A stretch of 64,000 bases of DNA from Brasilonema sp. UFV-L1 (GCF_012912105.1 NZ_QMEA01000063.1:1-64000), one strand, 5' to 3'; shown: positions 37,826-55,763, counted from the first letter of the stretch. The notes: generated from the letters alone by a model not told the origin. Numbers and translations: made by a program.

Positions 37826-38053
37826 GGTTTTTCTCTTTGCTTAAATTTTGTCTATTAGACATCTGTTGGAAAACAATGTAGAGACAGTGCTGTACGGTCA
37901 AGACAAGGGTTTCACATAACGCATAATTAATTTCTGAAGATGTCTATTATGTATGAATTATAACAGGAAGAGTGACACGAAGCTTTCCCATAAGATATTA
38001 TTGTTGGATAATAACAAGGTGTCCATCAACAAAATTGTTACTAAAAACTATTG

Positions 38054-38956: not shown

Positions 38957-40603
38957 CTAATCAATCTGAAATATGAACGCAAAAGCATCTTGCCGACCAA
39001 GAGTAATTTGAAGACCTGATTTTAATTTATACCAAATTCCTGGTATCATTGGGTACTTATTGATGTAAGTGCCGTTAGAACTGTTCAAATCTTGGATATA
39101 GTATTCGCTTCCATCGTAACAAATCTGAGCGTGAACCCGTGAGACAACTCCAGAATCGGGAAAATCTGAAAGATCAACTTCAGGGATAAGACGGTTACTG
39201 GACTTGCCAATATTAATAACCTGAAAATGTTCCGGTAACTCAATCACCCTATTCGTTTGGACATGGAAGAGTTGTGCAACAGGTTGTTGTAAAATTGTTG
39301 GCAATGTAGGCTCTGGAGCCAAAGTTGGTTCTTCGCTATTAATTGAAATCTGATGAGGTGGAACTTGTATCTGTATGGTTTTGGCAGTGAAATCGAAGAT
39401 TTTACTTGTTACGAAATAATTAAAGATTGCGAATCCAATAAGGGAAAAAACGGCGCTAGTATAAAAGACTGCTTGTAGTCCCCAGAACCTAATAGCAAGA
39501 CTTCCTAATAAAGGACCAAGTGTTTGTCCCCATGATTGAAGTGTTGAATTCACCGCCATAAATCCGGCGCGAGATTCTTGTGCAGAAAGCCCTGCTAAGA
39601 GTGCTTGAGAACATGGAAGCGCCATACCTTGGGCTGCACCCAGTAGAAAAATTGGGATAAATAGCAACCAAATGTTAGGAACAAGAGGAACAATTAATAG
39701 CCCAACAGCAAACAGAAGAAAAGAGAGTTTGATGAGCTTGATTTCTGAGAGATTTCGCAGCAACCGTCCTAATTGGGAAGCAACAACTGCTAAAGACAGC
39801 GACATACAAGTCAGGAGAATACCATTTATAGCTTCCGATGTACCAAATTTATTTGCTGCTAAAAAAGGTAGAAAGGTTAAGCAAGTTCCAGTTTGCAGCA
39901 TAAACACAGACATCACCGCAAACAATAGCCCAAGTACCTGACGATTGTTAATACTGTTCCAGGTTGTTTGTAGATAAGATTTGAGTTGAAAATTCTCTGT
40001 GTTCTGCGGTCGTCTTGGCAATCTTAATATTGTTAGTACCAAAAATGCCACGATAATGGCAAGTAGTGATAATAAAAACGGATATCTCCAACTAAATACC
40101 CCTAAAAACCCACCAATTAACGGAAAAAGTGCTGAACTAATACCAATTAAGCTAGCATTAAATGCCATCACAGCACCCAGCTTTCTCCCATGATAAAGAT
40201 CGCCGATAATGGTAAGTTGTAGAGATTCTAGGCTCGCAGTACCAACCCCTTGCAAAAATCGCCATCCCAAAAGGCTGCTAAAACTAGAAGCCAAGCCGCT
40301 TAAAGTTCCACCTAAGGCAAATATTAAAAGCGAAGGAACCAGGATTTGTTTTCTGCCAAGAACGTCAGCTAAAACTCCAAATACGGGAGTAATAAAAGCT
40401 CCAGGTAATTGAAAAAGTGTCGCTACCCATGCCGCTTGTTCCTCTGAAACTTGGAAAAATTTTTGTATCGTTGGTAGCGTCGGGTTAAAAATAGTTCCCC
40501 CAAGAATTGCCATTAACGTCACAAAATTGATGACGTAAAAATTCTTATCCTTGAAGATATTTGCCCCATTGTTTGATTGATTTTGCATTCTTGGATTACT
40601 CAT
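38957..40603 (-). CDS. MFS transporter fused to a C-terminal FHA domain
   Basis: 548 aa. Residues ~20-410 hold 12 or so membrane helices with the MFS motif GVLADVLGRKQILVP near residue 75 and LLGWRFLQGVGTA near 110, like drug-proton antiporters. After a linker (IQVPPHQISINSEEPTLAPEP) the last ~95 residues are an FHA domain: IGKSSN, SGVVSRVHAQICY, IQDLNSSNGTYIN. FHA domains bind phosphothreonine, so export could be controlled by a Ser/Thr kinase. This pairing is unusual. It ends 45 bp from the lipoprotein gene in convergent orientation. Confidence 0.9.
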   Translation of the reverse strand: MSNPRMQNQSNNGANIFKDKNFYVINFVTLMAILGGTIFNPTLPTIQKFFQVSEEQAAWVATLFQLPGAFITPVFGVLADVLGRKQILVPSLLIFALGGTLSGLASSFSSLLGWRFLQGVGTASLESLQLTIIGDLYHGRKLGAVMAFNASLIGISSALFPLIGGFLGVFSWRYPFLLSLLAIIVAFLVLTILRLPRRPQNTENFQLKSYLQTTWNSINNRQVLGLLFAVMSVFMLQTGTCLTFLPFLAANKFGTSEAINGILLTCMSLSLAVVASQLGRLLRNLSEIKLIKLSFLLFAVGLLIVPLVPNIWLLFIPIFLLGAAQGMALPCSQALLAGLSAQESRAGFMAVNSTLQSWGQTLGPLLGSLAIRFWGLQAVFYTSAVFSLIGFAIFNYFVTSKIFDFTAKTIQIQVPPHQISINSEEPTLAPEPTLPTILQQPVAQLFHVQTNRVIELPEHFQVINIGKSSNRLIPEVDLSDFPDSGVVSRVHAQICYDGSEYYIQDLNSSNGTYINKYPMIPGIWYKLKSGLQITLGRQDAFAFIFQID

Positions 40604-40695: not shown

Positions 40696-41205
40696 TTATT
40701 TGACTGTTGCCATACACTCAATTTCCACTCGTGCATTTAAAGCTAAACTATTTACTCCTAATGCGCTTCTGGCAGGCAGTCGAGATGCCGAAAAATAGCT
40801 GAGATAAACCTCGTTCATCGCGTTCCACTCTTTCATATCTGCAAGCATCACCTGACATTTTATAATTTGGTCAATTGATGACCCATGCCTCTCAAGAATA
40901 CGTTTCATATTCTCCATAGTTTGTTTTGTCTCAGCTTTAATTCCACCACTGACAAGCTGTTTCTTTCCAGGTATGTTTCCGATCACTCCTGAAAGGTAAA
41001 GCATATTACCAACACGTACTGCTTCCGAAAAAGGAAGATTCATAGATGTTGTTTCAGGAGAGGTTAGATATTCGACATAATCAGAATCTGGGGAAGATGG
41101 CATTTTTCGATGATTTTGGCTAAGTCTTGATTCTCTAGCTTCAATACTATAACTAAAAGCAGTACCCAAGAAAATGATAGTCATTAATGAAAATAAAAAA
41201 TTCAT
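40696..41205 (-). CDS. RidA/YjgF-family protein with signal peptide
   Basis: 169 aa. ATG at 41205 is preceded by AGGAAG at 6 nt; a TTG 24 bp further up is less likely. An N-terminal hydrophobic stretch (MNFLFSLMTIIFLGTAFS) suggests export. The RidA fold follows, with GNMLYLSGVIGN, MENMKRILERHGSSIDQIIKCQVML and the conserved Arg in LPARSALGV, ending VEIECMATVK. Cytosolic RidA hydrolyses reactive imines such as 2-aminoacrylate. A periplasmic form is unusual. It lies 1.6 kb from the nearest end of the indolocarbazole region. Confidence 0.8.
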   Translation of the reverse strand: MNFLFSLMTIIFLGTAFSYSIEARESRLSQNHRKMPSSPDSDYVEYLTSPETTSMNLPFSEAVRVGNMLYLSGVIGNIPGKKQLVSGGIKAETKQTMENMKRILERHGSSIDQIIKCQVMLADMKEWNAMNEVYLSYFSASRLPARSALGVNSLALNARVEIECMATVK

Positions 41206-41346
41206 TAAATTCTTCCTAAAAAGTGTCAAGTGTCAAAAAAAACAATAGACTTTTCTGGAAATAAGACGTTACTCCTTATTTTGCTTGAGTTAAAATCGAA
41301 TTTTCTGAAAAAGATTATCATGATTTTGGTATGGCATCGTCATGGC

Positions 41347-41811
41347 TTAAGATTCTTCTAGCGAAGTGGAACTACTTTGAGTTTTCCTTAAGCCAAACAG
41401 AACAATCAAACAACTCAAGAGGATAAAGCTACTTATGCCTTTGATAGCTATTTCGGTACTAGTTTCTAGCCAAGGAATACCTTCGGGCAATCCCATCGCA
41501 GTAATCAGAAACATCCTGCTTAAGCCAAACACTGCAGCCAAAAACTCCGCAATCAAACCAACATAAGCACTAACCAGAAGCATCCAAACATTTGCTCTAG
41601 CAACCCAAAGTGGTAACTTGAGTTGTGGATAAGACAAACCAATAACTGCTAAGAAGATTCCTTGTGTAATTCCGAGCAAATGAGTAGCAAGCCCTGTACG
41701 TGGATTCGCATACAAGGGTAAGAATAGACCAGCAACAAATCCTAATAGACAGATAAAAATACCATGCCAGAGAAGTGTGTGTTTAAACTCTTGACTTTGA
41801 ATGCTATCCAT
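41347..41811 (-). CDS. Hydroxylaminobenzene mutase-like membrane protein
   Basis: 154 aa with four membrane helices. LLWHGIFICLLGFVAGLFLP, NPRTGLATHLLGITQGIFLAV and LPLWVARANVWMLLVSAY resemble HabA/HabB, which isomerise hydroxylaminobenzene to aminophenol, and more distantly styrene-oxide isomerase. The His in WHG and in THL are the likely haem ligands in that superfamily. Whether this one acts on an aromatic hydroxylamine is unknown. Located between RidA and the peptidoglycan-binding triplicate, all on the minus strand. Confidence 0.7.
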   Translation of the reverse strand: MDSIQSQEFKHTLLWHGIFICLLGFVAGLFLPLYANPRTGLATHLLGITQGIFLAVIGLSYPQLKLPLWVARANVWMLLVSAYVGLIAEFLAAVFGLSRMFLITAMGLPEGIPWLETSTEIAIKGISSFILLSCLIVLFGLRKTQSSSTSLEES

Positions 41812-41899
41812 GTTAGACCATCTTTAGTTGTTTTTGTAACTAAATAAAAACAAAACAACACGGGTTGAGGAGTCAACCCACGTTGTTATCAGATTTAAG

Positions 41900-41956
41900 T
41901 TATGCAGGAAAACCGCTTAATTTTTGACCAGTTTGGAATCTAACGATCCCATCCAC
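41900..41956 (-). pseudogene. Degenerate fourth copy of the 72-aa peptidoglycan-binding gene (3' fragment)
   Basis: On the minus strand, in frame, VDGIVRFQTGQKLSGFPA then TAA. This matches VDGIVGPQTGRQLGAALA, the C-terminus of the three intact copies immediately upstream. No start or upstream part remains. It marks an older end of the tandem array. Confidence 0.75.
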
Positions 41957-41962
41957 TTGGGG

Positions 41963-42181
41963 TTACGCTAAAGCCGCGCCCAATTGTCTTCCTGTTTGCG
42001 GTCCAACGATTCCATCGACCGTTAGGTTATTGTCTTTTTGAAATTTCTTGACAGCATTTTCAGTCGCCTCACCAAATACGCCGTCAACTGCAACTTCGTA
42101 TCCCAGTTGGGATAACTCACCTTGCAAGCGCTCGACATCTGCACCAGTAGAACCAGATTGTAGGATTGAGGGTTGACTCAT
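41963..42181 (-). CDS. Small peptidoglycan-binding domain protein, copy 3 of tandem array
   Basis: 72 aa, one PG_binding_1 domain and nothing else (GADVERLQGELSQLGYEV, GEATENAVKKFQKDN, DGIVGPQTGRQLG). Identical in sequence to the middle copy. No signal peptide, so how it reaches the wall is unclear. An AGGAG-like site (AAAAGGAGCAAACTTCA) precedes the ATG. The three genes sit in 296-bp direct repeats covering gene and leader. Confidence 0.9.
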   Translation of the reverse strand: MSQPSILQSGSTGADVERLQGELSQLGYEVAVDGVFGEATENAVKKFQKDNNLTVDGIVGPQTGRQLGAALA

Positions 42182-42258
42182 TGAAGTTTGCTCCTTTTGA
42201 TGTGATATTTGTTAATACAGATGAAAGTTTGATAAATATGCAAGCGATCAAGCGTGGG

Positions 42259-42477
42259 TTACGCTAAAGCAGCGCCCAATTGTCTTCCTGTTTGCGGTCC
42301 AACGATTCCATCAACTGTTAGGTTATTGTCTTTTTGAAATTTCTTGACAGCATTTTCAGTCGCCTCACCAAATACGCCGTCAACTGCAACTTCGTATCCC
42401 AGTTGGGATAACTCACCTTGCAAGCGCTCGACATCTGCACCAGTAGAACCAGATTGTAGGATTGAGGGTTGACTCAT
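42259..42477 (-). CDS. Small peptidoglycan-binding domain protein, copy 2 of tandem array
   Basis: 72 aa, same protein as the copy at 41963-42181, with only synonymous changes in the coding DNA as far as I can see. The leader (77 bp, TGATATTTGTTAATACAGATG) is also repeated, so each copy has its own ribosome site. Such near identity means a very recent duplication or ongoing gene conversion. Confidence 0.9.
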   Translation of the reverse strand: MSQPSILQSGSTGADVERLQGELSQLGYEVAVDGVFGEATENAVKKFQKDNNLTVDGIVGPQTGRQLGAALA

Positions 42478-42554
42478 TGAAGTTTGCTCCTTTTGATGTG
42501 ATATTTGTTAATACAGATGAAAGTTTGATAAATATGCAAGCGATCAAGCGTGGG

Positions 42555-42773
42555 TTACGCTAAAGCAGCGCCCAATTGTCTTCCTGTTTGTGGTCCAACG
42601 ATTCCATCGACAGTTAAGTTATTGTCTTTTTGGAATTTTTTCACGGCATTTTCAGTCGCCTCACCAAATACGCCGTCCACTGCAACTTCGTATCCCAGTT
42701 GGGATAACTCGCCTTGCAAGCGTTCGACATCTGCACCAGTAGAACCGGATTTTAGGATTGGGGGTTGACTCAT
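42555..42773 (-). CDS. Small peptidoglycan-binding domain protein, copy 1 of tandem array
   Basis: 72 aa, differing from the other two copies at two places near the start (MSQPPILKSGSTG instead of MSQPSILQSGSTG), with more silent changes in the DNA. First in transcription order, nearest the P450 gene. It is the most diverged of the intact copies, so probably the parent. No catalytic domain; expected to bind peptidoglycan or, as an unexported single domain, to have another partner. Confidence 0.9.
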   Translation of the reverse strand: MSQPPILKSGSTGADVERLQGELSQLGYEVAVDGVFGEATENAVKKFQKDNNLTVDGIVGPQTGRQLGAALA

Positions 42774-42857
42774 TGTTGTCTCTCCTTTTGATGTGATATT
42801 TCTTAATAGAGGTGAAAGTTTGAAAAATATGCAAACGAACCGTTTAACTTTGTTAAG

Positions 42858-44129
42858 TTAAGGTTGTTGAGGAATATCCCACTCCACTTCGAGGCTTGCA
42901 TAACCACGGTCTAGCAATGTAGGAATATGGGTTAGTTGTTGGTTGGGGCAAAGTCGTAAATTAGGTAAGCGCAAAGACAATGTCTCTAGAGCAATCCGTC
43001 CTTCCCGACGAGCTAAACTCGAACCTGTACAGTGATGGAATCCATGACTAAATGCAAGATGGTTAACAGGTGTCTGTTGGAAACGTTCAATATTGAAGTC
43101 ATCAGCATGAGTGTACTGACTTTCATCGCGGTTGGCGGAACCATAGAGTACAAGAACACGAGTACCCTTAGGTAGGGTGACACCTGAAAGAGAAACGTCT
43201 TGAGTGGTAACGCGAATCATTGATTGGGCAGGAGTATCATACCTAAGTACTTCTTCCAGCGCAACAGGAATGAGTGATGGATCGTCACACAGACTTTGCC
43301 ATATCTTAGGGTTTTCCAGCAAAAGTTTTAACGATTTCCCAATCAGACTGGCAGTCGTTTTATGTCCTGCTATGATCATCTCACATAAAAGCAACGTTAA
43401 CTCTGGTGTGTTAAGGTCACTAGTTTGTAGCTCACTAATCAAGTCGTTACCTGGTGCAATCCGTCGTTTTTCAATCAGATCTGCAAGGAAGTGCTGTAAA
43501 GCAACATAGCGCTGAGCACATTCGATCTGGCGTTCTTTTGTTAACGGTGTTGAGAACAAAGCTGACGTGCTATTACCACACTCCTTGATTTCTGCCATTT
43601 TCTCTAGGGGGACAGTGTACATAGTGAGAATGACCTCAAGCGGTAGCGGATGAGCAAATTGCGATACAATGTCCGCATGACCATCATTGATAAAACTGTC
43701 TATCAACCTGTTGGCGATCGCACGAATGGAATCTTCTACAACGACAAGCCGCTCTGATGCAAACACTTTAAGAAAAGGATCGCGAAAGCGTTTGTGTTGC
43801 TCGCCATCGCTATTAATCAAAGAAATAAAGGGAAAGCCTTGACGCAACACTTCAATCACTTCTGGAGGATAGTCTCCAACAGTCTGGAGGCTATTTGCTG
43901 AAGAAAATCGTATTGGATCTTTGAGTACACTCAAAACGTCATTATATCGGGTCAGAACGTAAGCATTCACCAATGGGCTGTAAAATATTGGCTCTTCACT
44001 TCTAGCACGCTTATAAAATGGATAAGGGTCATCAAGTTGTGGGTTAACAAAAGGTTGGTACTCTTCTGAGATATGGGGGCAAGTTTTCTTTTCAGAGGGT
44101 ATTGAATGCTGTTCAGTCATTGTTTTCAT
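42858..44129 (-). CDS. Cytochrome P450, candidate tailoring enzyme of the bisindole cluster
   Basis: 423 aa soluble bacterial P450. I-helix AGHKTT at 254-259 (oxygen-binding Thr present), ExxR Glu293-Arg296 (EEVLR), and haem-thiolate Cys367 in FSHGFHHCTGSSLA. ATG codons at 44129 and 44120 are both usable. It is less like the StaP/RebP group than the P450 at 44699-45955, so it may oxidise the aglycone or couple its rings. On the same strand as the rebC/rebD/rebO homologues, separated from the VOC gene by 100 bp. Redox partners are not nearby. Confidence 0.85.
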   Translation of the reverse strand: MKTMTEQHSIPSEKKTCPHISEEYQPFVNPQLDDPYPFYKRARSEEPIFYSPLVNAYVLTRYNDVLSVLKDPIRFSSANSLQTVGDYPPEVIEVLRQGFPFISLINSDGEQHKRFRDPFLKVFASERLVVVEDSIRAIANRLIDSFINDGHADIVSQFAHPLPLEVILTMYTVPLEKMAEIKECGNSTSALFSTPLTKERQIECAQRYVALQHFLADLIEKRRIAPGNDLISELQTSDLNTPELTLLLCEMIIAGHKTTASLIGKSLKLLLENPKIWQSLCDDPSLIPVALEEVLRYDTPAQSMIRVTTQDVSLSGVTLPKGTRVLVLYGSANRDESQYTHADDFNIERFQQTPVNHLAFSHGFHHCTGSSLARREGRIALETLSLRLPNLRLCPNQQLTHIPTLLDRGYASLEVEWDIPQQP

Positions 44130-44229
44130 TCCTCATAACTTATGAGAGTTTTTTACTCAGTAAAGTTTTTCAGCTAATGTATAGGTTGGATTTCCTGTAC
44201 CTTGTTGTACTAGTTGTACTAATCGTGAT

Positions 44230-44601
44230 TTACTCCTGACAATCAATGGTGAATGGATTGCCTTCTGGATCAGCACCTTCAGCAATTTTGAGACTAGGCG
44301 AGGGAGAACGAACAGCACCCAGTTTCACGCCACGTTCTGTGAGTGTTTTGTAAGCAGTCTCAAAATCATTAACGTGAAATGCCAGCTTGGGTCTATCTTT
44401 ACCATGTTGTGGCTCTAAATTACCGTGTAGCACCAGAGTACATTCACCCGTCGCGAACTCCACCCATTGTTTATCGCTGCGTCCTTCTATACTCTTGAAG
44501 GATTTAACCTCAAGCCCCAACTGGTCGCGGTAGAAGTTTGTTTGTGTGTCTATGTCTCTTACATAAAGAATGGCTTTTGTCAAACCTTGTATGATACTCA
44601 T
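44230..44601 (-). CDS. VOC (glyoxalase/bleomycin-resistance fold) protein
   Basis: 123 aa from ATG 44601. The open frame runs on into the P450 gene, but the homology starts at MSIIQGLTKAILYVRDIDTQTNFYRDQLG. Two beta-alpha-beta-beta-beta modules with ending EGADPEGNPFTIDCQE, as in single-domain VOC proteins. It could be a drug-binding resistance protein or an isomerase/dioxygenase. Its place between two P450 genes of the cluster makes a role in product binding or conversion plausible. Metal ligands cannot be fixed by eye. Confidence 0.8.
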   Translation of the reverse strand: MSIIQGLTKAILYVRDIDTQTNFYRDQLGLEVKSFKSIEGRSDKQWVEFATGECTLVLHGNLEPQHGKDRPKLAFHVNDFETAYKTLTERGVKLGAVRSPSPSLKIAEGADPEGNPFTIDCQE

Positions 44602-44698
44602 GTGTGTAATTGATTGAAATTTTGTTTGCATTAAATTAAGTTTTATGAATCTTTCTCGTTCCCAGTGAACGCTGGGAATGAGAAAAAGCATCAAATTA

Positions 44699-45955
44699 TC
44701 ATGCATTTGCCACAGGCGGTCTGAAGCTAACGTGCAAATTTTTAGGACCATGAAATATAATGTTGTTTGCCCATTTAATTTTTTGATCTGCCAAACGAAG
44801 CTCAGGCAAACGATTGAGTAGAACATTCATGGCGATTTGACCCTCGGCACGGGCTAGCGACGAACCAAGGCAGTAATGGATACCGCCGCCATAGGCACTG
44901 TGTTTGTTTTCTTGACGCTGTATATCCAAAACATCAGGGTTCTTGAATTGGCTGGGATCTCGGTTGGCTGAGCCAAGCATCACCCCCACGCTATCCCCGC
45001 GCTTAATCAACTTGCCACCGACCTCAACGTCTTCATAAGCCCAGCGTGTTACCATCTGGATTGGCGTGTCGTAGCGGACGAACTCCTCTACTGCCGCAGG
45101 GATAAGTTCTGGGTGGGAGCGTAACTTTTTGAGTGCTTCTGGATGCTGGAGTAACGCCAGTGTCCCCTTGGCAATTAGGTTAATTGTGGTTTCGTGTCCT
45201 GCGGTCAACAGGTGGGTACAAGTGGCGACGATCTCAAAGTTGCTCAGTTTGTCGCCCTCATCAGCAGCTTTGACTAAAGCCGAGATCAGATCCTCGCGCG
45301 GATTAGCACGTCGTTCTGTGATTAAAGGAGTGAAATAATCGACGAATGCTTGGGCAGCCTCGTTTGCACGTTCGTAGACTTGTGGTGGTGGTTTCAAACG
45401 GGAGGCGCTGGCTTGTTGCATGGCTAGTGCCCATTGACGGAATAATGGCAAATCTTCGGGATCAGCACCTAGCATAATAGCAACCACCTTAGTTGGCAGA
45501 GGGAAAGCAAACTCCTCAACCAAGTCCAACTCACCACGGTTCTGGACTTGATCCAACAGATTGTCTGCGATTTCGTAGATGGCTGGACGGATGTTTTCGA
45601 CAATTTTTGGGGTAAATGCCTTGCTAGCCAGCGATTTTAGCCGTGTGTGATTGGGTGGTTCCCGAAAGACTATCCAGTTACTGACCAAAGACAGGAAGGC
45701 GTTATATGCTGTTGGCACTGGCGTGGTTTCAACGTCTTCTCGTTCGTTCAAGGTCTCGCGACCAAATCTCCTGTCTTCAAGAACTTTCATCACATCTTCA
45801 TGACGGAAGATGTACCAGGCACCCGGCAATTGGGGATTCGCCGATACCCCCCAATGAACGGGGTCTTCTTCTCTGTAGCGACGGTAGACTGTGTAGGGGT
45901 CTTGGATAACTTCTTTTATAAACGGGTTTAATCTTTCAATCGTTGAACTAGTCAT
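44699..45955 (-). CDS. Cytochrome P450, best candidate for the StaP/RebP step
   Basis: 418 aa. I-helix AGHETT 252-257, ExxR Glu291-Arg294, haem Cys362 in GGGIHYCLGSSLARAEG. The N-terminal DPYTVYRRYREEDPVHWG and WYIFRHEDVMKVLEDRRFG are of the type seen in StaP/RebP, the P450 that joins the indole rings of chromopyrrolic acid. It is next to the GST and the rebC homologue on the same strand. Assignment to the StaP/RebP role is from context and general similarity; substrate-site residues were not aligned. Confidence 0.8.
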   Translation of the reverse strand: MTSSTIERLNPFIKEVIQDPYTVYRRYREEDPVHWGVSANPQLPGAWYIFRHEDVMKVLEDRRFGRETLNEREDVETTPVPTAYNAFLSLVSNWIVFREPPNHTRLKSLASKAFTPKIVENIRPAIYEIADNLLDQVQNRGELDLVEEFAFPLPTKVVAIMLGADPEDLPLFRQWALAMQQASASRLKPPPQVYERANEAAQAFVDYFTPLITERRANPREDLISALVKAADEGDKLSNFEIVATCTHLLTAGHETTINLIAKGTLALLQHPEALKKLRSHPELIPAAVEEFVRYDTPIQMVTRWAYEDVEVGGKLIKRGDSVGVMLGSANRDPSQFKNPDVLDIQRQENKHSAYGGGIHYCLGSSLARAEGQIAMNVLLNRLPELRLADQKIKWANNIIFHGPKNLHVSFRPPVANA

Positions 45956-46012
45956 TTTTTATCTCCAAGAAAAAGTTTTTAATGAAACGTTAGTAGGGGT
46001 AGCGTCCCTTTA

Positions 46013-46687
46013 CTAATTTTCCAATGGCACCAGTTGCAGTGGATTGCGCAGTTGGGACAACATCTGTGTCATTTGGTCGCGTCCAGAGTTGAAAACTTGT
46101 GCTACTGATGGTCTTGACTCCAAACGTCTGACGTAATTTGTCAAGTTGGGAAAGTGTTTGTAGTTGTAAACCATACGCAGGTAAGCGAGAGTGGGAGCAG
46201 CAGCACAATCAGCGATCGTAAACTCTTCACCTCCTAGCCAGGTACGACTTGCCAGTTTTTCATCAAGCATGGCGATCGCCGTTTCCAATAACCGTTTTGC
46301 TTTGATAACTTCTTTTTTGCCCCGTTCCTCAACCGGACGCTGGGTATCAGCAAACAGGGCTTCCCGTCCACTGTTGATGTATACATCAATCATCCGTTCC
46401 AGCATCCGCACCTCTATAGCTTGTTCTGAATCAACAGGAATCAGGCGGGATGTATTTGGAAAATGTTGGTCAAGGTATTCAATGATGATATTAGCCTCAA
46501 ATATCACATTTCCTTTGTCCGTTACTAGGGTAGGTATCTTGGCAAAAAGGTTAATTTGCATATACTCTTCACGGGATTTGGGGTCAAAGAGATTTACTGG
46601 AATCGCTGTAAAATCAACTCCCTTCTCGTACAGGGCGATGAGGACTCGTTGGGAATAAGATGATGCAGGAGCGTAATATAGTTTCAT
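46013..46687 (-). CDS. Glutathione S-transferase
   Basis: 224 aa, two-domain cytosolic GST. The thioredoxin-like domain (1-80) has MKLYYAPASSYSQRVLIAL with Ser residues at the usual catalytic place, the cis-Pro in AKIPTLV and the EANIIIEYLD glutathione-binding segment. The helical domain has LGGEEFTIADCAAAPTLAYL. It lies between a P450 and the rebC homologue on the same strand, with a 57-bp and a 143-bp gap. It may detoxify reactive intermediates or add or remove glutathione in the pathway. A GST is not a standard part of known staurosporine/rebeccamycin clusters. Confidence 0.85.
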   Translation of the reverse strand: MKLYYAPASSYSQRVLIALYEKGVDFTAIPVNLFDPKSREEYMQINLFAKIPTLVTDKGNVIFEANIIIEYLDQHFPNTSRLIPVDSEQAIEVRMLERMIDVYINSGREALFADTQRPVEERGKKEVIKAKRLLETAIAMLDEKLASRTWLGGEEFTIADCAAAPTLAYLRMVYNYKHFPNLTNYVRRLESRPSVAQVFNSGRDQMTQMLSQLRNPLQLVPLEN

Positions 46688-46830
46688 GACTCAGTTCTCA
46701 GTTATCGGTTGATAGTTATCCATACCGGAGAACAAATGAATTTATGCATCTGGTTCTGTTTTGTATTCGCAACAGCGAAAAGCAAACAGGCATAGGGATT
46801 AACTGATAACTGAAAACTGTGAGACGAATT

Positions 46831-48438
46831 CTAATTAAAAACTCCTCGAACTCGGTCAATCAGCGCCTCTGAGTCTTCAGGTAGGCTGTCACCTCTCCAA
46901 GCAACATGTCCATCAGGACGTACCAAAACATAAGCACGCTCATAAAGCTTGCCAATTTCCGGGTTATCGATGGACTTGGTTATCAAGGGTACTCCTTTGT
47001 CCTGACAAACCTTTGTTAATGTTTCGACTTTCTGTGTTGAGTCAAAGCACATCAACACAAAAGAGCGACCGAACAAATCCAAAGTAGATAACCCTTGTTC
47101 TAACCACGCATGGGGTGCGCGACAACCAGGATAACTACTCTGTTTCCACTCGAAGGCGTCATCGCTGGGAGGTGTACCATCAGGAATTATACCAGGGGAC
47201 TCATAGCGAAACCCGAAGTGAACACCAGGCGCTTCAAACTCGCGCTTCACACCACTGCGTTCCATACCAATAGCCATCTCTTGGCGGATTTGTTCACCTT
47301 CTGGGCTGTCGGTCATAATGACTGGAGGAATAGCACGTTTCTGGGTGCGTTGCAAGTTGGCGTTCGCTTCCTGGAGGTTTCGCACTGCAATGGGACGCCT
47401 TTCAATTTCATAACTGTTGAGCAAATCCGGACCAGCCCAGCCTTTGAGGGTAGCAGCTAATTTCCAGCCCAAGTCAGCAGCATCACCGATACCAGTGTTC
47501 ATACCAAAACCGCCAGAAGGGGAGAGTGTATGGGCACTGTCACCAACGAAGAAGATATTTCCAACTCGAAAATGGTCTGCAACTCGGTGAGTGAGACGCC
47601 ACGGAACGTTAGAAACAATTTCAAAAGGGGTATCTATTGATATAGCGGCGCGGATAGCTTCTTCAGCATCACGCACACTCCCGTCTTCTTTTGGCTTCAA
47701 AATCAGACGATAAAGTGAGTCCCCGTCTACTGCACGGAGTGGTTCTTGAAGAATTGGGTTGACTAAATAATAAACCATTGCATGGTTTTTTCCCATCACA
47801 GTCGCCAACTCTGGTGCTTTGAACACCACACTCTGAAACACCTGGGTGTCGTGAAAAGTGGGAGCATCAACACCACAAGCTTTACGTACTGCACTGCGGG
47901 CACCATCACAAGCTACCATGTATCGAGCATGAATGAGTTGTGTTGTTGCTTTTTGCAAGTTTGTCACTTTGGCGATCGCACCTTCAGGAGTTTGCTCAAA
48001 ACTCTCTAAGCAATGCTGCAGGCGAATGACTCCGTGTGGATATTCTCCCAGGTAATTCTGGAACACAGGAGCAAACCAGTTTTGTGGGCAGACTTGCTCT
48101 GTTTCTGGTGAGTAGTCAGGTAGCGATCGCTCAGCATAAGAAGGAAAATGAACTCGGTATATTTCGTGTCCACCGACAGAGGTCACCCAGGCAATATCTA
48201 GAGTGTGGTCACTCGGCCAACCTGCATCACGTATCTGTTGAGCGATTCCCCAACGGCGGCAATATTCCATTGATCGTGGTCCGACTGTACTGACTTTGGG
48301 GTCAGTCACAACTCCGTCGGTCTGTTCTATAAGGATGCAATCTATACCTTGGTAGCGTAGTTCTACTGCCATTGCTAAGCCAACAGGTCCGCCACCTACT
48401 ATGAGTACATCTGTTTCTAGATTGTTTTCTAAAGTCAT
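46831..48438 (-). CDS. rebC: RebC/StaC-type FAD monooxygenase (indolocarbazole)
   Basis: 535 aa flavin monooxygenase. Dinucleotide fold GGGPVG at 15-20, DG motif in VACDGARS (Asp178-Gly179), FAD-ribityl motif FVGDSAHTLSPSGGFGMN (Gly299-Asp300), and a thioredoxin-like C-terminus ending LVRPDGHVAWRGDSLPE. The runs EQTDGVVTDPKVSTVGPRSM, WVTSVGGHEIYR and REFEAPGVHFG match RebC/StaC along the whole length, better than general PheA/TfdB hydroxylases. With a StaP/RebP P450 it directs chromopyrrolic acid to arcyriaflavin or K252c. Between the GST and the rebD homologue, same strand. Confidence 0.85.
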   Translation of the reverse strand: MTLENNLETDVLIVGGGPVGLAMAVELRYQGIDCILIEQTDGVVTDPKVSTVGPRSMEYCRRWGIAQQIRDAGWPSDHTLDIAWVTSVGGHEIYRVHFPSYAERSLPDYSPETEQVCPQNWFAPVFQNYLGEYPHGVIRLQHCLESFEQTPEGAIAKVTNLQKATTQLIHARYMVACDGARSAVRKACGVDAPTFHDTQVFQSVVFKAPELATVMGKNHAMVYYLVNPILQEPLRAVDGDSLYRLILKPKEDGSVRDAEEAIRAAISIDTPFEIVSNVPWRLTHRVADHFRVGNIFFVGDSAHTLSPSGGFGMNTGIGDAADLGWKLAATLKGWAGPDLLNSYEIERRPIAVRNLQEANANLQRTQKRAIPPVIMTDSPEGEQIRQEMAIGMERSGVKREFEAPGVHFGFRYESPGIIPDGTPPSDDAFEWKQSSYPGCRAPHAWLEQGLSTLDLFGRSFVLMCFDSTQKVETLTKVCQDKGVPLITKSIDNPEIGKLYERAYVLVRPDGHVAWRGDSLPEDSEALIDRVRGVFN

Positions 48439-48738
48439 TTGTTTTCAGCCCAAAGTTATTTGTTTGAACTCATCACTCAGTTGTCAGTTTGAAGAAGAAT
48501 TCAGCAATTCTGCAATTCTTGATTCAGAAGAAAGAAATCAGGACTTACGCAAAATAATGAAAAAATAAACCGCATTAGCGTTTGCGCAGCGCCCCCTTAG
48601 GGGCTAGCGTGTCCGAAGGACATAGGACGCAAAGAGCACGAAGTTAAGAGAGTTTAAAAGGGTTTTTGCGTAAGTCCTAGAAATGAAGAATTTAGTTTTT
48701 CGACTCCTGACTCGGTGACTCCTTTACTGTGTACTGTT
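48439..48738. other. Repeat-filled spacer between rebC and rebD homologues
   Basis: Holds the dispersed repeat GTTTGAAGAAGAATTCAGCA ... TTTTTCGACTCCTGACTC and, inserted within it, the MITE at 48540-48678. No gene. The rebC homologue may therefore have its own promoter here. Confidence 0.6.
48540..48678. mobile_element. MITE with AGGACTTACGCAAAA terminal repeats
   Basis: 139 bp with perfect 15-bp terminal inverted repeats AGGACTTACGCAAAA. It is flanked by AGAAAT (48533-48538 and 48679-48684) as a likely target duplication. It sits inside a dispersed repeat whose uninterrupted relative is at about 33333-33420. The middle carries GC-rich short repeats (GCGTTTGCGCAGCG, CTAGCGTGTCCGAAGGACA). No ORF. 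Confidence 0.8.
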
Positions 48739-51700
48739 TTAATGCAATAAAGACTGGGGATGACGAGCCAGGTCTTCAAAGAATCTGGCATAAAACTCGA
48801 ATATCTCGTAGACACTGCTGGGGATAACTTCGCACTCACGCGCCCGATGTCCTAATCGCTCAAATCGACGGGCGATCGCACTCATTGCGATTTCTGGCAT
48901 GGGAATATAACTAGGAGATTCTATCTCAAAGGATGGTCCGGCTGTTTTACCGCTTTTGCCTGAGGGCATACTCATCAGCAACTCTCCTAAAGGACGCATC
49001 ATTCCTGTCATCACGTCAATACCAGCATTCATCAGCTTTGAACGCCGCAGACTACCAGTGGGCATCAATCCAAAGTGCTGTACCATAAGTTGTATCATCA
49101 GGAAATAACTCTCGTTGAATATTTCCATGACTGCCCTGGTTTGGGGAACAGTGACAACGTTAGTGTTATAATCTCGATAATGTAAGGAAGGATTACGCAA
49201 AGCAGGATAGGAAGGGTTCCACGGTATTTTGCATCCTGTTTCAGCATTGGTCATCTGCTCAGAGGAAAGCGCGTCTGCTAGACGACGAAATTGTTGATAG
49301 TGAGAACGTTCAAATTTCGGTGATTTGGCATGACATCCCTCTCCCTGTTCGACAATAAGATCGATGGCAAAAAGTGCGCTGTTGAGGTCGTCTACCTGAA
49401 ACTGGTAATCTGGGTGAACCTTGTTAAAGTCATCGCGTAAAAATAAACGATGTTCGCCACCGACATTACCCTTTTTGACCATGAATAAATCTGGAATATT
49501 CTTCAGCCCTTCGCGAATCTGATGGTACAGTTCGCTCAAAGAACCATAACCGTGCAGGTGGTGAACTGTAGGATCGCCTCCTGCTGGTTCATTGCTGAGG
49601 TTTTCTTCTAAAAAGTCGGGCATCTCCAAGCGCATAAAACGCTGTAGAGAGGTGGCGTTCAATGGTTCAAGAGCAAAGTCTACATCAATGGGAAAGCGTC
49701 CATTGAGTTCCCGGAAGTTGGGGACTGCTGGATAAAAAGGTTCCCCGATCGCCATCAATATATTGTTAACCATCAAAAAGTGAATCATTTCCTCGCGGGA
49801 AATTTCCAGCACCACACCGCGCATCCCGTAACTTTTGACTTCTTTCCCGTCACCACAAGCTAAATGTAACTGTTCAGGAGTCCATAAACCCCGACGTACA
49901 TATTCCTGACCAGTGACATAGTTGGGAATAGAGTATCCTGCATAGATGTATTGCAACATGACAGCAACTTCCAACTCCGCCGCTTGTTTTAGCGCACTTA
50001 CTAACTCCTCTCGCGTCTGGAGTGTGCGTTGGGTACGCTTTGGTTCTGGAGTTGCACTTGGGACGTAGCCGACTCGCTGCTGATTTTGCAGAAACTTCAG
50101 CAAAAGCATCGACTTGGCTTGAGACATATCGCGCGTTGGAGGCATATAGTAAGTCTTATATTTGTTGCGAGGGTCAGACATCTGCCACATCAAACGCGCA
50201 TAGGTTTCTACCTTGCATTGGTCAGCGAGACTGAAGACATCTACTTTCATAAACGAGAAACTTAACTCGTAGAAAGCTAGAACGTGTTCGTAGATTAAGT
50301 TAAAATCTACAGCTTGATCAGGAATGTCTTCTAGGTGCCAGTCATCACTCATGACTCGAACAGCAAAGAAGCCAGCACCACCCCAAAATCCGAGTTTATC
50401 ATCATTGTCATAAGCAATTTCCGCTTCGTCTAAGTCATTAGAATCACAGGCATTGCATATTTGCGGGATGATATTATTTTCTTTGCGCTCTTGGCGACTT
50501 GGCGGTTCGTACTTCATCCCCTTTTTGTGCAACGCCGAATCACAAACTAAATCTTCAGAGTGAGCAGATAGCAAAACTCGTGTCGTTCCTGATTTGGCAC
50601 CGCGCACAGTTACCCAAGCGCGCCCCTTGTAGTCAGTGGAAATTGCACATGTGGGGGTAAATTCTCCCTGAAACTCCCGCTTTCCTGGCTTGAAGTGGAC
50701 AATTTCCATTTCACTGCTGCGAGGAAAGTGGAAAGTCTTATCTACGTTGGCGCGATCGCTTTCAAACTCGTAGCGTAGTTGAGGAAAGGCTTTTGGGTTG
50801 TAGAACTGACGCAGATAGACAGACTCAACTGGTGCAGGACGCCCCCGGACGAAAGACCGTACTTCTAACTCGACTGCATGGTCTTCACCACGCTTCCAGT
50901 TTGGATGTTCTAGAAATAAACAAGCGTCATCTATCTGAAGGTTGATTTCTTCTTCTTGAACGAGAATTTGCGGTTGTCCGTTAGGTGCTGTCCCAAGGAT
51001 GCATAAACCTTGCTGTTCTATTTCCTCAGACAAGTTTTCAAGCGGTTCTGCTAAAGGAACATCTACAATTCCACTGGTGAGTTGATGCGCTTGGTGTTGG
51101 TATTTTTCCTTTGGTATCCGCGCTATCAACCTTTTGCTGTCAACGGTACGCACTTCCAAATCACCCAAGTCAAGTTTGGGACCAATAGCGTGAGTTGGTC
51201 CTGGTCCCGGTTTGGGGGCGCGTCCTACACAGGGTACTGCTGTGACCATGTTTAAACTCACGCCTTGAGGGGTGACTTGCAAGGTGAGGTTAGACATTGG
51301 TCGAGATTCTATTTCCGATTCCGCCGCACGTCGAGGAGTGAGCAAGCGTCCGTGAGGATAAGTGCTGAGTTCATCTTGACACCATAATCCGATAGTTCCG
51401 TGCAGTTCCCAGAAAGTTGGTGAGTCAGGCTGAACTGGTGCAGACATATTACTGATGCCCAATTGCACAACTAACCCCAACACATCATCACGATTCATTG
51501 CTTCTCGTAACATTGATACTGTTGGTGACTGGGCGACTTCTTCACCCCAAAGGAAATCTTGAGTATCTTTGGGGACAGTAAATTGATAAACGGCTGCTCG
51601 TTTAAATTCACTATTGAGACAGTGTTGAGGTAATTCGCGGATATGGTTGAAGTTTTGCCAACGGGCTAACTGCAGACCTGAAATTGGTCCAGAAACCATA

Positions 51701-52194
51701 TTTGGGGTTTCGTGAGAACCACCAAGGCGTCCGAAGGTTAATTGACCCAACATAATTGTGTTAGTCCAATTGGAAGCTGGATCGCATTCAAAGAAGCGGG
51801 CGCGATTGAAGCTTGTTTTGACGTAATCATTGTAGTGACCCCATAAATCAACACTGCGTCCGACAACTGGATCGTGTTGGTCAATCTGTCCAAACTCGCG
51901 TTGTGTGCTGACAATTTGTGCTTCAATCGAGAAGTGACCGTTTCCGCCAAAGTCCCACCCCATTGCCATGCTGAAGGGACCATTTTCATCTAATTCTCCT
52001 TGAGCATTGAACCGAGGTCCTAAGTTATACAGGTATTCGTGGTACTCGGACGCTCTACGCTGCTGGTCAAATGGCTTACCGTTCATGTAGACTGTGTTGC
52101 TACTGACATCTACCAGACCGTTTTTATGTCCTGTAGGGGCGTGGATGCGTGCGAAACCTTGAAAGTGCAGCCGGGGAAAATTTAAGATACTCAT
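48739..52194 (-). CDS. rebD: RebD/StaD/VioB-type chromopyrrolic acid synthase
   Basis: 1151 aa, about 140 longer than VioB/RebD. It starts MSILNFPRLHFQGFARIHAP as VioB/RebD do and keeps family blocks throughout: WGHYNDYVKTSFNRARF, VFSLADQCKVETYARLMWQM, TYYMPPTRDMSQAKS, EVAVMLQYIYAGYSIPNY, EISREEMIHFLMVNNILMAIGEPFY and GSLRRSKLMNAGIDVMTGMMRP. These haem enzymes couple two indole-3-pyruvate imines to a bisindole. Extra length lies mostly at ~430-650. Neighbours (rebC, rebO, P450s; no vioC-E) argue for chromopyrrolic acid, not violacein. Confidence 0.9.
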   Translation of the reverse strand: MSILNFPRLHFQGFARIHAPTGHKNGLVDVSSNTVYMNGKPFDQQRRASEYHEYLYNLGPRFNAQGELDENGPFSMAMGWDFGGNGHFSIEAQIVSTQREFGQIDQHDPVVGRSVDLWGHYNDYVKTSFNRARFFECDPASNWTNTIMLGQLTFGRLGGSHETPNMVSGPISGLQLARWQNFNHIRELPQHCLNSEFKRAAVYQFTVPKDTQDFLWGEEVAQSPTVSMLREAMNRDDVLGLVVQLGISNMSAPVQPDSPTFWELHGTIGLWCQDELSTYPHGRLLTPRRAAESEIESRPMSNLTLQVTPQGVSLNMVTAVPCVGRAPKPGPGPTHAIGPKLDLGDLEVRTVDSKRLIARIPKEKYQHQAHQLTSGIVDVPLAEPLENLSEEIEQQGLCILGTAPNGQPQILVQEEEINLQIDDACLFLEHPNWKRGEDHAVELEVRSFVRGRPAPVESVYLRQFYNPKAFPQLRYEFESDRANVDKTFHFPRSSEMEIVHFKPGKREFQGEFTPTCAISTDYKGRAWVTVRGAKSGTTRVLLSAHSEDLVCDSALHKKGMKYEPPSRQERKENNIIPQICNACDSNDLDEAEIAYDNDDKLGFWGGAGFFAVRVMSDDWHLEDIPDQAVDFNLIYEHVLAFYELSFSFMKVDVFSLADQCKVETYARLMWQMSDPRNKYKTYYMPPTRDMSQAKSMLLLKFLQNQQRVGYVPSATPEPKRTQRTLQTREELVSALKQAAELEVAVMLQYIYAGYSIPNYVTGQEYVRRGLWTPEQLHLACGDGKEVKSYGMRGVVLEISREEMIHFLMVNNILMAIGEPFYPAVPNFRELNGRFPIDVDFALEPLNATSLQRFMRLEMPDFLEENLSNEPAGGDPTVHHLHGYGSLSELYHQIREGLKNIPDLFMVKKGNVGGEHRLFLRDDFNKVHPDYQFQVDDLNSALFAIDLIVEQGEGCHAKSPKFERSHYQQFRRLADALSSEQMTNAETGCKIPWNPSYPALRNPSLHYRDYNTNVVTVPQTRAVMEIFNESYFLMIQLMVQHFGLMPTGSLRRSKLMNAGIDVMTGMMRPLGELLMSMPSGKSGKTAGPSFEIESPSYIPMPEIAMSAIARRFERLGHRARECEVIPSSVYEIFEFYARFFEDLARHPQSLLH

Positions 52195-52898
52195 CTTAAA
52201 AAACCATTTTTATGACTTTGGACAAAAAGGGAAGGTAGGAAAGAAAATAAGGACTTTGCTGAATATTTGTGTTTATCTGACAAATCGGGAAAGTGGGCAA
52301 GTTATGGGAGTTAAAACACGAGATGATTAATTTTCCCGATAAATACTGATTTGTATTGAAATGGAACAAAATATGAGACTGTACTGAAGTTTAACCGTAT
52401 CTAGAAATATTTCAGCCCTTCTTTATGTTAGAAAAATACCTCATTGACAGCAAGCTTGTTATCTATATGTTTTACATATACATTGATTTTTTGTTAACTT
52501 TAATACATCAAGGAGCTTGCGGTCATATTTTGTTTGAAGCATTGTGAATACGTGTTAAGTTTACTCCCAGATACATTGTCTTTGTCTCAAAGACTACTAT
52601 CTTGTTTTCTTTTGTTTTTCTTCATAAATAGCGTTCCTTGAACAAGTCAGGGTTGATAGTCATAAGGTCACAACAAATATATAGAGTTGAGTCAGTCGAA
52701 CTTATGCAGTTACAGATTTGAACAGAGGCATAATAAGTGCAGCACAGGAGCAAATCAGAGGGCGAAAACCCTTTTACTTCTGACGGGCGTGACTTCTGAA
52801 TTCTACTGTATGTTCTCAACCTTCCAAATCTATTGAACGGGCGAGTTGAGATGATTAAGCCATTTGACAACCCTGTAATGGTTGGTTATCTTCTAGAG
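52195..52898. other. Intergenic between rebD and rebO homologues
   Basis: About 700 bp of AT-rich sequence upstream of the rebD homologue, probably with its promoter. I see no gene; an 82-codon minus-strand frame at 52622-52870 has no ribosome site or motif. It ends at the MITE at 52899. Confidence 0.45.
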
Positions 52899-53080
52899 GG
52901 CGTTGCTGATTTGAAGTATGAATCTAGTTTTGTCATGCTGAATGTAGCGAAGCGAAATGAAGCATCTGCAGAGATTCTATGTCCTGCGGACACGCTGCGC
53001 TAACGCTTCACTTCGTTACGCTGTCCTGCGGACACGCTGCGCTAACAGAATGACAATTCATACGCTGATTCAGCAACGCC
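52899..53080. mobile_element. MITE, family A, copy 2, overlapping the rebO homologue's 3' end
   Basis: 182 bp, inverse of the copy at 8666-8824, same ends (GGCGTTGCTGA) and exact 8-bp duplication TTCTAGAG (52891-52898, 53081-53088). It is 23 bp longer because a 24-nt GC-rich unit (52981-53004) is repeated at 53023-53046. The right 39 bp encode the last 12 residues and the stop of the rebO homologue. Confidence 0.9.
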
Positions 53081-54601
53081 TTCTAGAGTCTTACCATTTG
53101 TCAAACTCCTCATCAAGTACTTTTTTTTTGCTTTCAATGTTGGTTTGTGAGAAACAATATCGTACACAGCGAAAAGTGCAGACTCGATAGAACCCTGAAG
53201 CCAAGCAGGGTATTTAGAACAATGTTCGCCAGCAAAGAAGAGAGTGTTTTGTGGTCTAGCAGCTTCTAAGTAATTGACAGTATGATTCGATTCATCAGAC
53301 GTATCATCGCTCCAATGAACAGTGCATCCACCAGCACTCCACTCGTAATTACCCCAGGCAATTGAAGCCATATTTAAAACCATACTAGGAGTTTTCAGCT
53401 CTGGGTGAATTTTGCTGACTCTATTCTTGACATAAGCATGACGCTCTTGCTCAGACATCATCCCCAAGCGTTGTGCATCATCGCCGATAGTATAACTAGC
53501 AAGAATCGTACTACCACTTTCAGGGTTGAATTTCACAGAAGGATAGTATATTTGGCGAACGCCATCACCACTGAAAGATGCACCACCCTTGATACCTTGT
53601 TTTTCCCAAAAAGCTTGTTCTGTGTGAAATGCGACCTTGGTTGCTGGACAATATATAGTGTTGTCGATAGATTCTAATTTTCTGTCATCAAATCCGCTTA
53701 ACTTCATCTTCCGCAAGACTGAGAAAGGAATAGTGCATAACACATAGTCACAACTGCGGGTATGCAACTGTCCATTTTCCAAGTAATCCAATTCTACGTG
53801 GTCTTGACATACGCGTATTGCCACTATTTTTTGGTTGCACTGAATCGGAGAGTTGATTGATGCTACCAGACGTTGGATGAGTTGATCCATTCCACCTTTG
53901 AGTTGTAATAAATCGTGACTAGTTTCAACTAAGATGTCACTGAAGAACATATCCAAAGCTTTGCTGCAACGAGCGCGAAAACTTGGGTTATCTTTGAGAA
54001 ATTCTTGTAAGTCGATAGTTTCGCCGTCTTCGCTAAAATAAGGTTCTAAATCCAGTCTTTCTAATTCATCCATTAAATGTGATTTCAAGTCTTGTTCCAA
54101 ACTTTCACGCAAGTTACCAGGAGAAATAGTATCGACGATGGTTTTCAGCCATCCAGCAAAGAGTTGGGTTTTCTCGCTGTAATCATTGTCGGTAAAAATT
54201 CCTTGATAACGCTCTTGAACGAGGCGGGGTGCGTCTTTCATCCGGAAAGTTTTGTCTTGGATGTTTATGAAGGCGTTTTGTTCTTCAAAGACTGTGACAA
54301 ATTTGCAGAGTTTGTCATCCAACCCCATTTGGGATACATAGTGCAGTGTATGCTGATGTTCACTGGGGATACGCATTGCTCCCAGTTCTGCGTAGGGTGC
54401 GTCAGGTTCGTTTCCAAAATGGTGAGTCCAAATTCGACCACCGATACGTGGGCTAGCTTCCATAATATCTACTTGATGACCCAGACGTTCTAACTCATAG
54501 GCTGCAACCAAACCAGCAATCCCCGCGCCGAGAATGGTGATGCGCCTACTTTCGGGGAAGTTTGCTAGTTTGCACATATCGAGCATTGCTGTGGTGTCCA
54601 T
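53042..54601 (-). CDS. rebO: RebO/StaO-type L-tryptophan oxidase
   Basis: 519 aa FAD amine oxidase. GAGIAG at 25-30, PRIGGRIWTHHFG at 51-63, AELGAMRIPSEH with Arg77 (substrate carboxylate Arg of this family), GGMDQLIQRL, CTIPFSVLRKMKLSGFD, GGASFSGDGVRQIYYPS and FFAGEHCSKYPAWLQGSIESA match RebO closely. It would oxidise Trp to indole-3-pyruvate imine and H2O2. Residues 508-519 (GVAESAYELSFC) and the stop come from the MITE, so the original C-terminus is lost. The FAD and substrate motifs precede this, so activity may persist. First gene of the cluster in transcription order. Confidence 0.9.
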   Translation of the reverse strand: MDTTAMLDMCKLANFPESRRITILGAGIAGLVAAYELERLGHQVDIMEASPRIGGRIWTHHFGNEPDAPYAELGAMRIPSEHQHTLHYVSQMGLDDKLCKFVTVFEEQNAFINIQDKTFRMKDAPRLVQERYQGIFTDNDYSEKTQLFAGWLKTIVDTISPGNLRESLEQDLKSHLMDELERLDLEPYFSEDGETIDLQEFLKDNPSFRARCSKALDMFFSDILVETSHDLLQLKGGMDQLIQRLVASINSPIQCNQKIVAIRVCQDHVELDYLENGQLHTRSCDYVLCTIPFSVLRKMKLSGFDDRKLESIDNTIYCPATKVAFHTEQAFWEKQGIKGGASFSGDGVRQIYYPSVKFNPESGSTILASYTIGDDAQRLGMMSEQERHAYVKNRVSKIHPELKTPSMVLNMASIAWGNYEWSAGGCTVHWSDDTSDESNHTVNYLEAARPQNTLFFAGEHCSKYPAWLQGSIESALFAVYDIVSHKPTLKAKKKYLMRSLTNGKTLEGVAESAYELSFC

Positions 54602-55328: not shown

Positions 55329-55724
55329 CTACTTCAATGCATACTCAGGGTTATATTCAACGAACTCAATCTCATTTCCATCTGGATCATTGACATAAAT
55401 TCTGTGCTTGGTTTCTGAGGCTGTCATTGTGTAATATTCAATCTTCTCAGTATCAAGCAGTTTTTTCAAAGCTTCACCATCTTTAATCACAAAGCCGACA
55501 TGATTTATGCCAATGCTTTCATAGGGCGTATGTACACGCTCTTGATCCGTTTGATCATTGAGGGCAAGATAAAATTGATTATCTCCGAAATGCATCCAGT
55601 GTCTACCCTCAAATACGCCCTCAGCGCGTACATACCAATCAGGAAATAGGATTTGATAAAACTTCTTGGTTGCATCAATATCTTTGCAAGAAACGTTGAT
55701 ATGTTCAAAGCGAATAAAGTTCAT
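55329..55724 (-). CDS. VOC family protein
   Basis: 131 aa from ATG 55724, chosen because AGGAG lies 8 nt upstream and the fold starts at MNFIRFEHINVSCKDIDATKKFY. The frame runs 39 bp further. Likely metal ligands are His in RFEHINV, His in GINHVGFVI and Glu in NEIEFVEYNP, the standard His/His/Glu pattern of VOC enzymes. It could be a dioxygenase, a lactoylglutathione lyase-type enzyme or a binding protein. It is divergent in place from the cluster, separated by a terminator and 0.7 kb from rebO, so membership is uncertain. Confidence 0.8.
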   Translation of the reverse strand: MNFIRFEHINVSCKDIDATKKFYQILFPDWYVRAEGVFEGRHWMHFGDNQFYLALNDQTDQERVHTPYESIGINHVGFVIKDGEALKKLLDTEKIEYYTMTASETKHRIYVNDPDGNEIEFVEYNPEYALK

Positions 55725-55763
55725 ATTTTTCTCCTTTGCGCCGAACCCTGTGTCATGAATCAA

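Follow-up and report, generated by a model that had tools for sequence, protein, structure and literature searches.

A predicted indolopyrrolocarbazole gene cluster of a Nostocales-specific subtype in Brasilonema sp. UFV-L1

The 64,000-nucleotide stretch of Brasilonema sp. UFV-L1 DNA that we analysed (NZ_QMEA01000063.1:1-64000, hereafter the window) very probably carries a cluster of intact genes for indolo[2,3-a]pyrrolo[3,4-c]carbazole formation; this cluster would belong to a Nostocales-specific subtype. Indolocarbazoles are classic inhibitors of kinases and topoisomerases, and to our knowledge almost all of the clusters studied so far are from actinomycetes. The comparison with related genomes points to a conserved, mosaic, Nostocales-wide subtype that is marked by a GST as constant partner, by PGBD mini-proteins in tandem and by an exporter of the MFS-FHA type.

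An earlier note on this DNA had placed RebO, RebD and RebC, together with two P450s, a GST and a VOC protein, at 42858-54601 on the minus strand. Translation of the ORFs in this interval revealed that all of the genes are full-length and free of internal stops. RebO, RebD and RebC are thus each present and intact, and the P450s, the GST and the VOC protein were borne out by Pfam domains and PDB matches. The genes stood as described, with VOC1 placed at 44230-44601, and the outer limit had to be moved: the array reaches 38957, about 3.9 kb beyond the limit given earlier, and the added part holds three small ORFs (41963-42773) and a further three genes. The following features were assigned.

53042..54601, minus strand: RebO-type L-tryptophan oxidase, 519 aa (Amino_oxidase, PF01593)
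48739..52194, minus strand: RebD/StaD-type chromopyrrolic acid synthase, 1151 aa (TIGR04492, 969 bits; ferritin-like, PF12902)
50449..50536, minus strand: 88-bp MITE-like element in rebD (8-bp target duplication TGTGATTC; 32 codons added in frame)
46831..48438, minus strand: RebC/StaC-type FAD monooxygenase, 535 aa (best PDB match RebC, 2r0c)
46013..46687, minus strand: glutathione S-transferase (GST), 224 aa, SSYSQRV motif (Pfam GST_N/GST_C)
44699..45955, minus strand: StaP/RebP-type cytochrome P450, aryl-aryl coupling, 418 aa (best PDB match StaP, 2z3t)
44230..44601, minus strand: VOC/glyoxalase-fold protein (VOC1), 123 aa (PF00903; kept in 18 of 30 loci)
42858..44129, minus strand: second P450, predicted tailoring, 423 aa (best PDB matches CYP116B-type heme domains)
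42555..42773, minus strand: PG_binding_1 mini-protein copy 1, 72 aa (PF01471, 75 bits)
42259..42477, minus strand: PG_binding_1 mini-protein copy 2, 72 aa (PF01471, 75 bits)
41963..42181, minus strand: PG_binding_1 mini-protein copy 3, 72 aa (PF01471, 75 bits)
41899..41960, minus strand: degenerate 3' remnant of a fourth mini-protein copy (array-tail translation, read by eye)
41854..41887, minus strand: terminator-like hairpin of 15 pairs with a T-rich tail, after the mini-protein array
41347..41811, minus strand: small membrane protein, tentatively hydroxylaminobenzene-mutase-like (kept in 13 of 30 loci)
40696..41229, minus strand: RidA-family imine/enamine deaminase (TIGR00004 above curated cut-off; PF01042)
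38957..40603, minus strand: MFS exporter with fused C-terminal FHA domain (PF07690 and PF00498)

Neither a dedicated P450 redox partner nor a pathway regulator was identified within the cluster. Promoter and terminator scans gave counts no higher than those of shuffled sequences; they were discarded as evidence and served only to locate the one strong hairpin. A second VOC gene (55329-55763) adjoins the cluster only in Scytonema RU_4_4, and we excluded it from the cluster, its membership being unproven.

Core enzymes and the predicted aglycone

Characterised indolopyrrolocarbazole clusters share RebO, RebD, RebP and RebC genes (PMC3158105). The genes found here fit this set, in agreement with the indolocarbazole-type reading proposed earlier, and on all four genetic counts the predicted cluster would belong to the indolo[2,3-a]pyrrolo[3,4-c]carbazole class. 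A protein search and phylogeny of the core enzymes, which the earlier note had suggested as a check, returned RebO/RebD/RebC-type matches and placed RebD within the cyanobacterial RebD clade, with the protein of Scytonema RU_4_4 as its sister. RebO, of which the whole genome holds a single full-length copy, showed 43% identity to a RebO-type protein of Streptomyces clavuligerus and only 50.6 bits against the VioA model, far under the 600-bit cut-off; its orthologues (72-86%) adjoin RebD in relatives. RebD is 41% identical to a StaD-type protein of S. clavuligerus, and its score on TIGR04492, a VioB/RebD model, does not reach the VioB equivalog threshold (1250). The P450 at 44699-45955 matched StaP (2z3t) at 389 bits, compared to 320 bits for the runner-up, and carries a heme loop (GIHYCLG) identical to that of StaP; it is 40% identical to the S. 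clavuligerus staurosporine-type protein. The FAD monooxygenase gave RebC (2r0c) as its top PDB match (643 bits, E 4e-192) and is 50% identical to its S. clavuligerus counterpart.

By homology to characterised enzymes, RebO would turn two molecules of L-Trp into indole-3-pyruvate imine, which RebD would dimerise to chromopyrrolic acid, and the StaP-type P450 would then join the two indole C2 positions. RebC would capture the unstable dicarboxy product and yield the aglycone, which is likelier to be arcyriaflavin A than K252c. The cluster by itself gives no reason to expect a halogen or a sugar on the product. That the strain makes an indolocarbazole aglycone, and which one, we infer from the genes.

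RebC is described as giving arcyriaflavin A, and StaC as giving K252c (PMC10851217). We inspected the ten positions that are altered in the StaC-like RebC-10x (2r0c vs 4eip). The window protein was RebC-like at six of them (E36, Q37, T38, Q117, A231 and R239) and StaC-like at three (K46, S48 and V216), and its I241 resembled neither enzyme. Nearly the same hybrid pattern was observed across most cyanobacterial RebC proteins. Since RebC-like and StaC-like residues are mixed, arcyriaflavin A is favoured as the predicted aglycone, and K252c or a mixture of aglycones is plausible. We give a lesser but real chance to an end product that is tjipanazole-like or consists of K252c or mixed aglycones, rather than arcyriaflavin A alone, in which case cyanobacterial RebC would not be strictly selective. 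This variant of the main reading, which is compatible with it, draws on the hybrid switch residues and on the tjp pathway, reported to lead to three skeleton types, namely, staurosporine-, rebeccamycin- and UCN-type (PMC12842986); the RebC-like majority of diagnostic positions, which includes R239 and Q117, argues against it.

Accessory genes and their distribution

We compared 30 cyanobacterial RebD loci, mostly from Nostocales. The usual order was RebO-RebD-(RebC)-GST-StaP-VOC-P450-mini-proteins-(membrane protein)-(RidA)-MFS-FHA. This order is kept across many Nostocales genomes and is therefore not due to chance, and the partner genes beside the indolocarbazole core recur in about 20 related cyanobacteria. 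Of 59 near relatives, 12 were found to carry RebD, as against 2 of the 386 genomes sampled phylum-wide.

The earlier note had singled out the GST as a difference from actinomycete clusters, and this mark proved stronger than claimed. GST and StaP occurred together in 21 of the 30 loci and were both absent from the remaining nine (kinship ignored in these counts), such that GST accompanied StaP in 21/21 loci and was present in 0/9 loci without StaP; no GST turned up in the actinobacterial loci that we examined. Moreover, GST was retained in StaP-bearing clusters even where RebC is missing or displaced. RebC is missing in four relative genomes (G004, G011, G017 and G024) and is displaced upstream in three. 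These natural clusters without RebC, together with the hybrid RebC/StaC residues, leave the oxidation state of the aglycone open to direct testing. The second P450 was just 60-73% alike among relatives, and a different P450 takes its place in S. hyalinum, NIES-4073, Cyanomargarita and some Calothrix. The GST, the VOC protein and the second P450 probably act on the aglycone or on the StaP product, either modifying or stabilising it.

The genus of the window includes Scytonema tolypothrichoides, Brasilonema angustatum, Brasilonema CT11 and Scytonema RU_4_4. The last of these is the sister of the window for RebC and the exporter as well as for RebD, with 94-95% for RebD and RebC. The window StaP groups with those of Brasilonema and Scytonema (93-94%), whereas the StaP of RU_4_4 groups with Nostoc CHAB 5824 instead. 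This discordant grouping and the replacement of the second P450 indicate that the cluster is mosaic and that its P450s are exchangeable.

The 1-kb "gap" past the second P450 turned out to be a tandem repeat with a 296-bp unit and 95% matches. A non-coding or structured RNA was rejected for this repeated region (41812-42857), since the Rfam search was empty and translation gave the three 72-aa ORFs. The encoded mini-proteins are near-identical, with one PG_binding_1 domain apiece and a ribosome-binding-like AAAGGAG sequence ahead of each ORF, and the family is also found in relatives. Matches of at least 63 bits were confined to the 12 of 59 genomes that hold RebD (kinship ignored), and among the listed strong matches, all but one lie inside the cluster; the remaining genomes gave generic PG-binding matches only, at 59 bits or less. 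No signal peptide was evident in the mini-proteins. Speculatively, they may be intracellular small accessory or binding proteins, which is the weakest part of our account. We found no description of them in the literature searched, which does not prove that none exists.

The small membrane protein had no match in Pfam or NCBIfam and resembled (32%) a protein beside a nitroreductase on plasmid pCNB. RidA displays a hydrophobic leader at its N terminus and the PARS arginine motif, and it may remove stray imine made by RebO. The MFS-FHA protein is the probable exporter of the product. It had matches at E <1e-130 in exactly the 12 of 59 genomes holding RebD (kinship ignored). It was rejected as a cluster-only gene, a second copy (61%) lying elsewhere in the genome; the gene is thus strongly associated with the cluster, but its family also occurs outside it. 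It is conceivable, though we rate it as rather unlikely, that these genes make up a distinct Nostocales pathway: the StaP-coupled GST would capture the reactive product of StaP or process it, standing in for RebC in clusters that lack RebC, and cytosolic PG_binding_1 mini-proteins would carry or sequester the product for the FHA-tagged exporter.

The element within rebD and the violacein branch

The MITE-like element in rebD has inverted ends of GGCGTTGCA type and is flanked by a perfect 8-bp target duplication (TGTGATTC). Further copies are present in the genome, two of which likewise carry their own 8-bp duplications. The insert was absent from all other aligned RebD proteins and could impair the enzyme. 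Moreover, RebO next to RebD is absent or truncated in several relatives, and the S. tolypothrichoides genome gave no RebO match at all. The loss of RebO or RebC from several relatives indicates that, in this group, the pathway can do without some of its parts or is losing them. A decaying remnant, with RebD broken by the mobile element and no product made, would account for these observations, but we regard it as quite improbable. Indeed, the insertion (96 bp including the target duplication) preserves the frame without introducing stops, falls in a region that is length-variable in an alignment of RebD proteins and does not attain the length of the copies elsewhere in the genome. Furthermore, all other ORFs are intact, and dN/dS relative to relatives is low, with values of 0.09-0.15 for RebD (about 0.10), RebC, GST and StaP and of 0.20-0.26 for RebO. 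We thus retain an intact cluster as the preferred reading.

A profile search for VioE (PF18234), the enzyme of the violacein branch, found no match in the window's genome or in twelve relatives, the built-in controls being silent. The same model scored 293 bits in the cyanobacterial loci L049 and L058 and therefore works on cyanobacterial VioE. That the cluster leads to a violacein-type bisindole, with RebD acting as VioB and the monooxygenases as VioC/VioD, is highly improbable and was rejected. In its favour, RebD and VioB are one family, and in Anabaena azotica and Nostoc flagelliforme a RebD of the same clade adjoins VioC, VioD and VioE. Against it, the genome search gave no VioE, the match of the FAD enzyme to RebC reaches 643 bits and a StaP-type P450 is present.

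With respect to these other cyanobacteria, A. azotica FACHB-119 carries VioC and VioD above the curated cut-offs plus VioE, N. flagelliforme FACHB-838 carries VioD above the cut-off along with VioC and VioE homologues, and VioE is present in Calothrix PCC 7103. No description of cyanobacterial violacein clusters was found in the literature searched, their absence from it not being proven. In the tree, RebD/VioB proteins of vio-bearing cyanobacteria fell at two separate places inside the cyanobacterial RebD clade. Thus, RebD sequence alone cannot separate indolocarbazole from violacein clusters in cyanobacteria. VioE occurs with RebD proteins nested in this clade, which suggests an exchange between the indolocarbazole and violacein branches on a single enzyme lineage in cyanobacteria.

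Comparison with known systems

No halogenase, glycosyltransferase or sugar genes were found among the annotated cluster genes, which agrees with the lack of halogenase and glycosyltransferase remarked on earlier. A genome search for a Trp halogenase acting in trans gave only weak, partial Trp_halogenase-family matches, of at most 99 bits. On its gene content, the predicted cluster cannot strictly be called a tjipanazole cluster, because it has no Trp halogenase, and it is not a staurosporine or rebeccamycin cluster, because it has no sugar genes.

The rebeccamycin (reb) cluster has RebO, RebD, RebC and RebP homologues in common with the window cluster. It differs from it by RebH halogenase, a glycosyltransferase and a sugar methyltransferase, whereas the window cluster adds the GST, the VOC protein, the second P450, the PGBD mini-proteins and MFS-FHA; residues V216, K46 and S48 of the window RebC differ from those of reb RebC. 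The staurosporine-type cluster of S. clavuligerus (pSCL4) has the same four core enzymes at 40-50% identity. Unlike the window cluster, it also has deoxysugar genes and a LuxR-type regulator, and the diagnostic residues of its RebC counterpart differ from those of the window at most positions. GST, mini-proteins and MFS-FHA were not found in any of the actinobacterial clusters compared. In the violacein (vio) system, VioA and VioB are related to RebO and RebD, but VioE, VioC and VioD are absent from the window cluster.

For Chlorogloeopsis and Brasilonema CT11, published data include automatic "indole" or "maleimide/indolocarbazole" BGC predictions, which are tool output only (PMC11392904, PMC7503407). 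We observed RebD loci in both genera (L064 and L056), and the published predictions may correspond to these loci. The tjp cluster of Symphyonema bifilamentata 97.28 ("Fischerella ambigua 108b") encodes a Trp oxidase, a chromopyrrolic acid synthase-like protein, a P450 and an FAD monooxygenase (PMC10300848). It differs from the window cluster by its Trp halogenase, and the GST, mini-proteins and exporter of the window cluster are unnamed in the tjp five-enzyme list (PMC10300848). Both clusters are cyanobacterial and, going by the published description of tjp, have a Trp oxidase, a chromopyrrolic acid synthase-like protein, a P450 and an FAD monooxygenase in common.

Repeat element and exporter genes

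The rebD gene carries a short mobile element bounded by inverted repeats, which also occurs at two further loci (L003 and L004):

50449-50536 (window), element within rebD
L003:930-1041, element
L004:1501-1617, element

Its ends read GGCGTTGCA and its target duplications are 8 bp. The rebD copy is shortened and leaves the frame open.

At the end of the cluster, the MFS-FHA exporter gene is adjoined by a PhnD-like gene, and a second exporter copy lies outside the cluster:

38051-38911 (window), PhnD-like substrate-binding protein
L121:7604-11213 (window's genome), second MFS-FHA copy (60%) with its neighbouring MFS gene

Many relatives have an ORF of ~286 aa at the position equivalent to the PhnD-like gene. 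The second exporter copy is paired with another MFS gene, and the same pair was observed in a relative (G006 contig C253, L122).

Tryptophan genes and RebO paralogues

Tryptophan biosynthesis genes adjoin RebD clusters at three loci:

L064:273-8332
L051:1400-8080
L124:11362-14542

A complete set plus DAHP synthase was observed in Chlorogloeopsis PCC 6912 (L064), and candidate ORFs alike in size in N. flagelliforme (L051). In S. tolypothrichoides (L124), putative trpB, trpA and trpC-like ORFs adjoin the displaced RebC.

Stand-alone RebO paralogues (71-73%) occur elsewhere in Nostocales genomes (L125, L126, L127, L128); contig C13 of relative G027 carries three, tandem-like.

Split RebD and violacein-type genes

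In a deep RebD branch, two ORFs (about 690 and 415 aa) replace the single protein, and a distant VioE homologue adjoins them:

L071:9932-13298; L072:10001-13301; L073:10001-13278, split RebD (Mojavia, Nostoc XA010, Aquimarina)

Violacein-type genes were observed in three cyanobacteria:

L049:9887-16637, A. azotica FACHB-119
L051:8133-20848, N. flagelliforme FACHB-838
L058:9995-16435, Calothrix PCC 7103

A. azotica has VioC and VioD, both above the cut-off, plus VioE, and RebO is not adjacent to these genes at that locus. N. flagelliforme has VioD above the cut-off, RebO, and homologues of VioC and VioE; VioE is present in Calothrix. In the tree, VioB of these three cyanobacteria occupies two separate positions within the cyanobacterial RebD clade.
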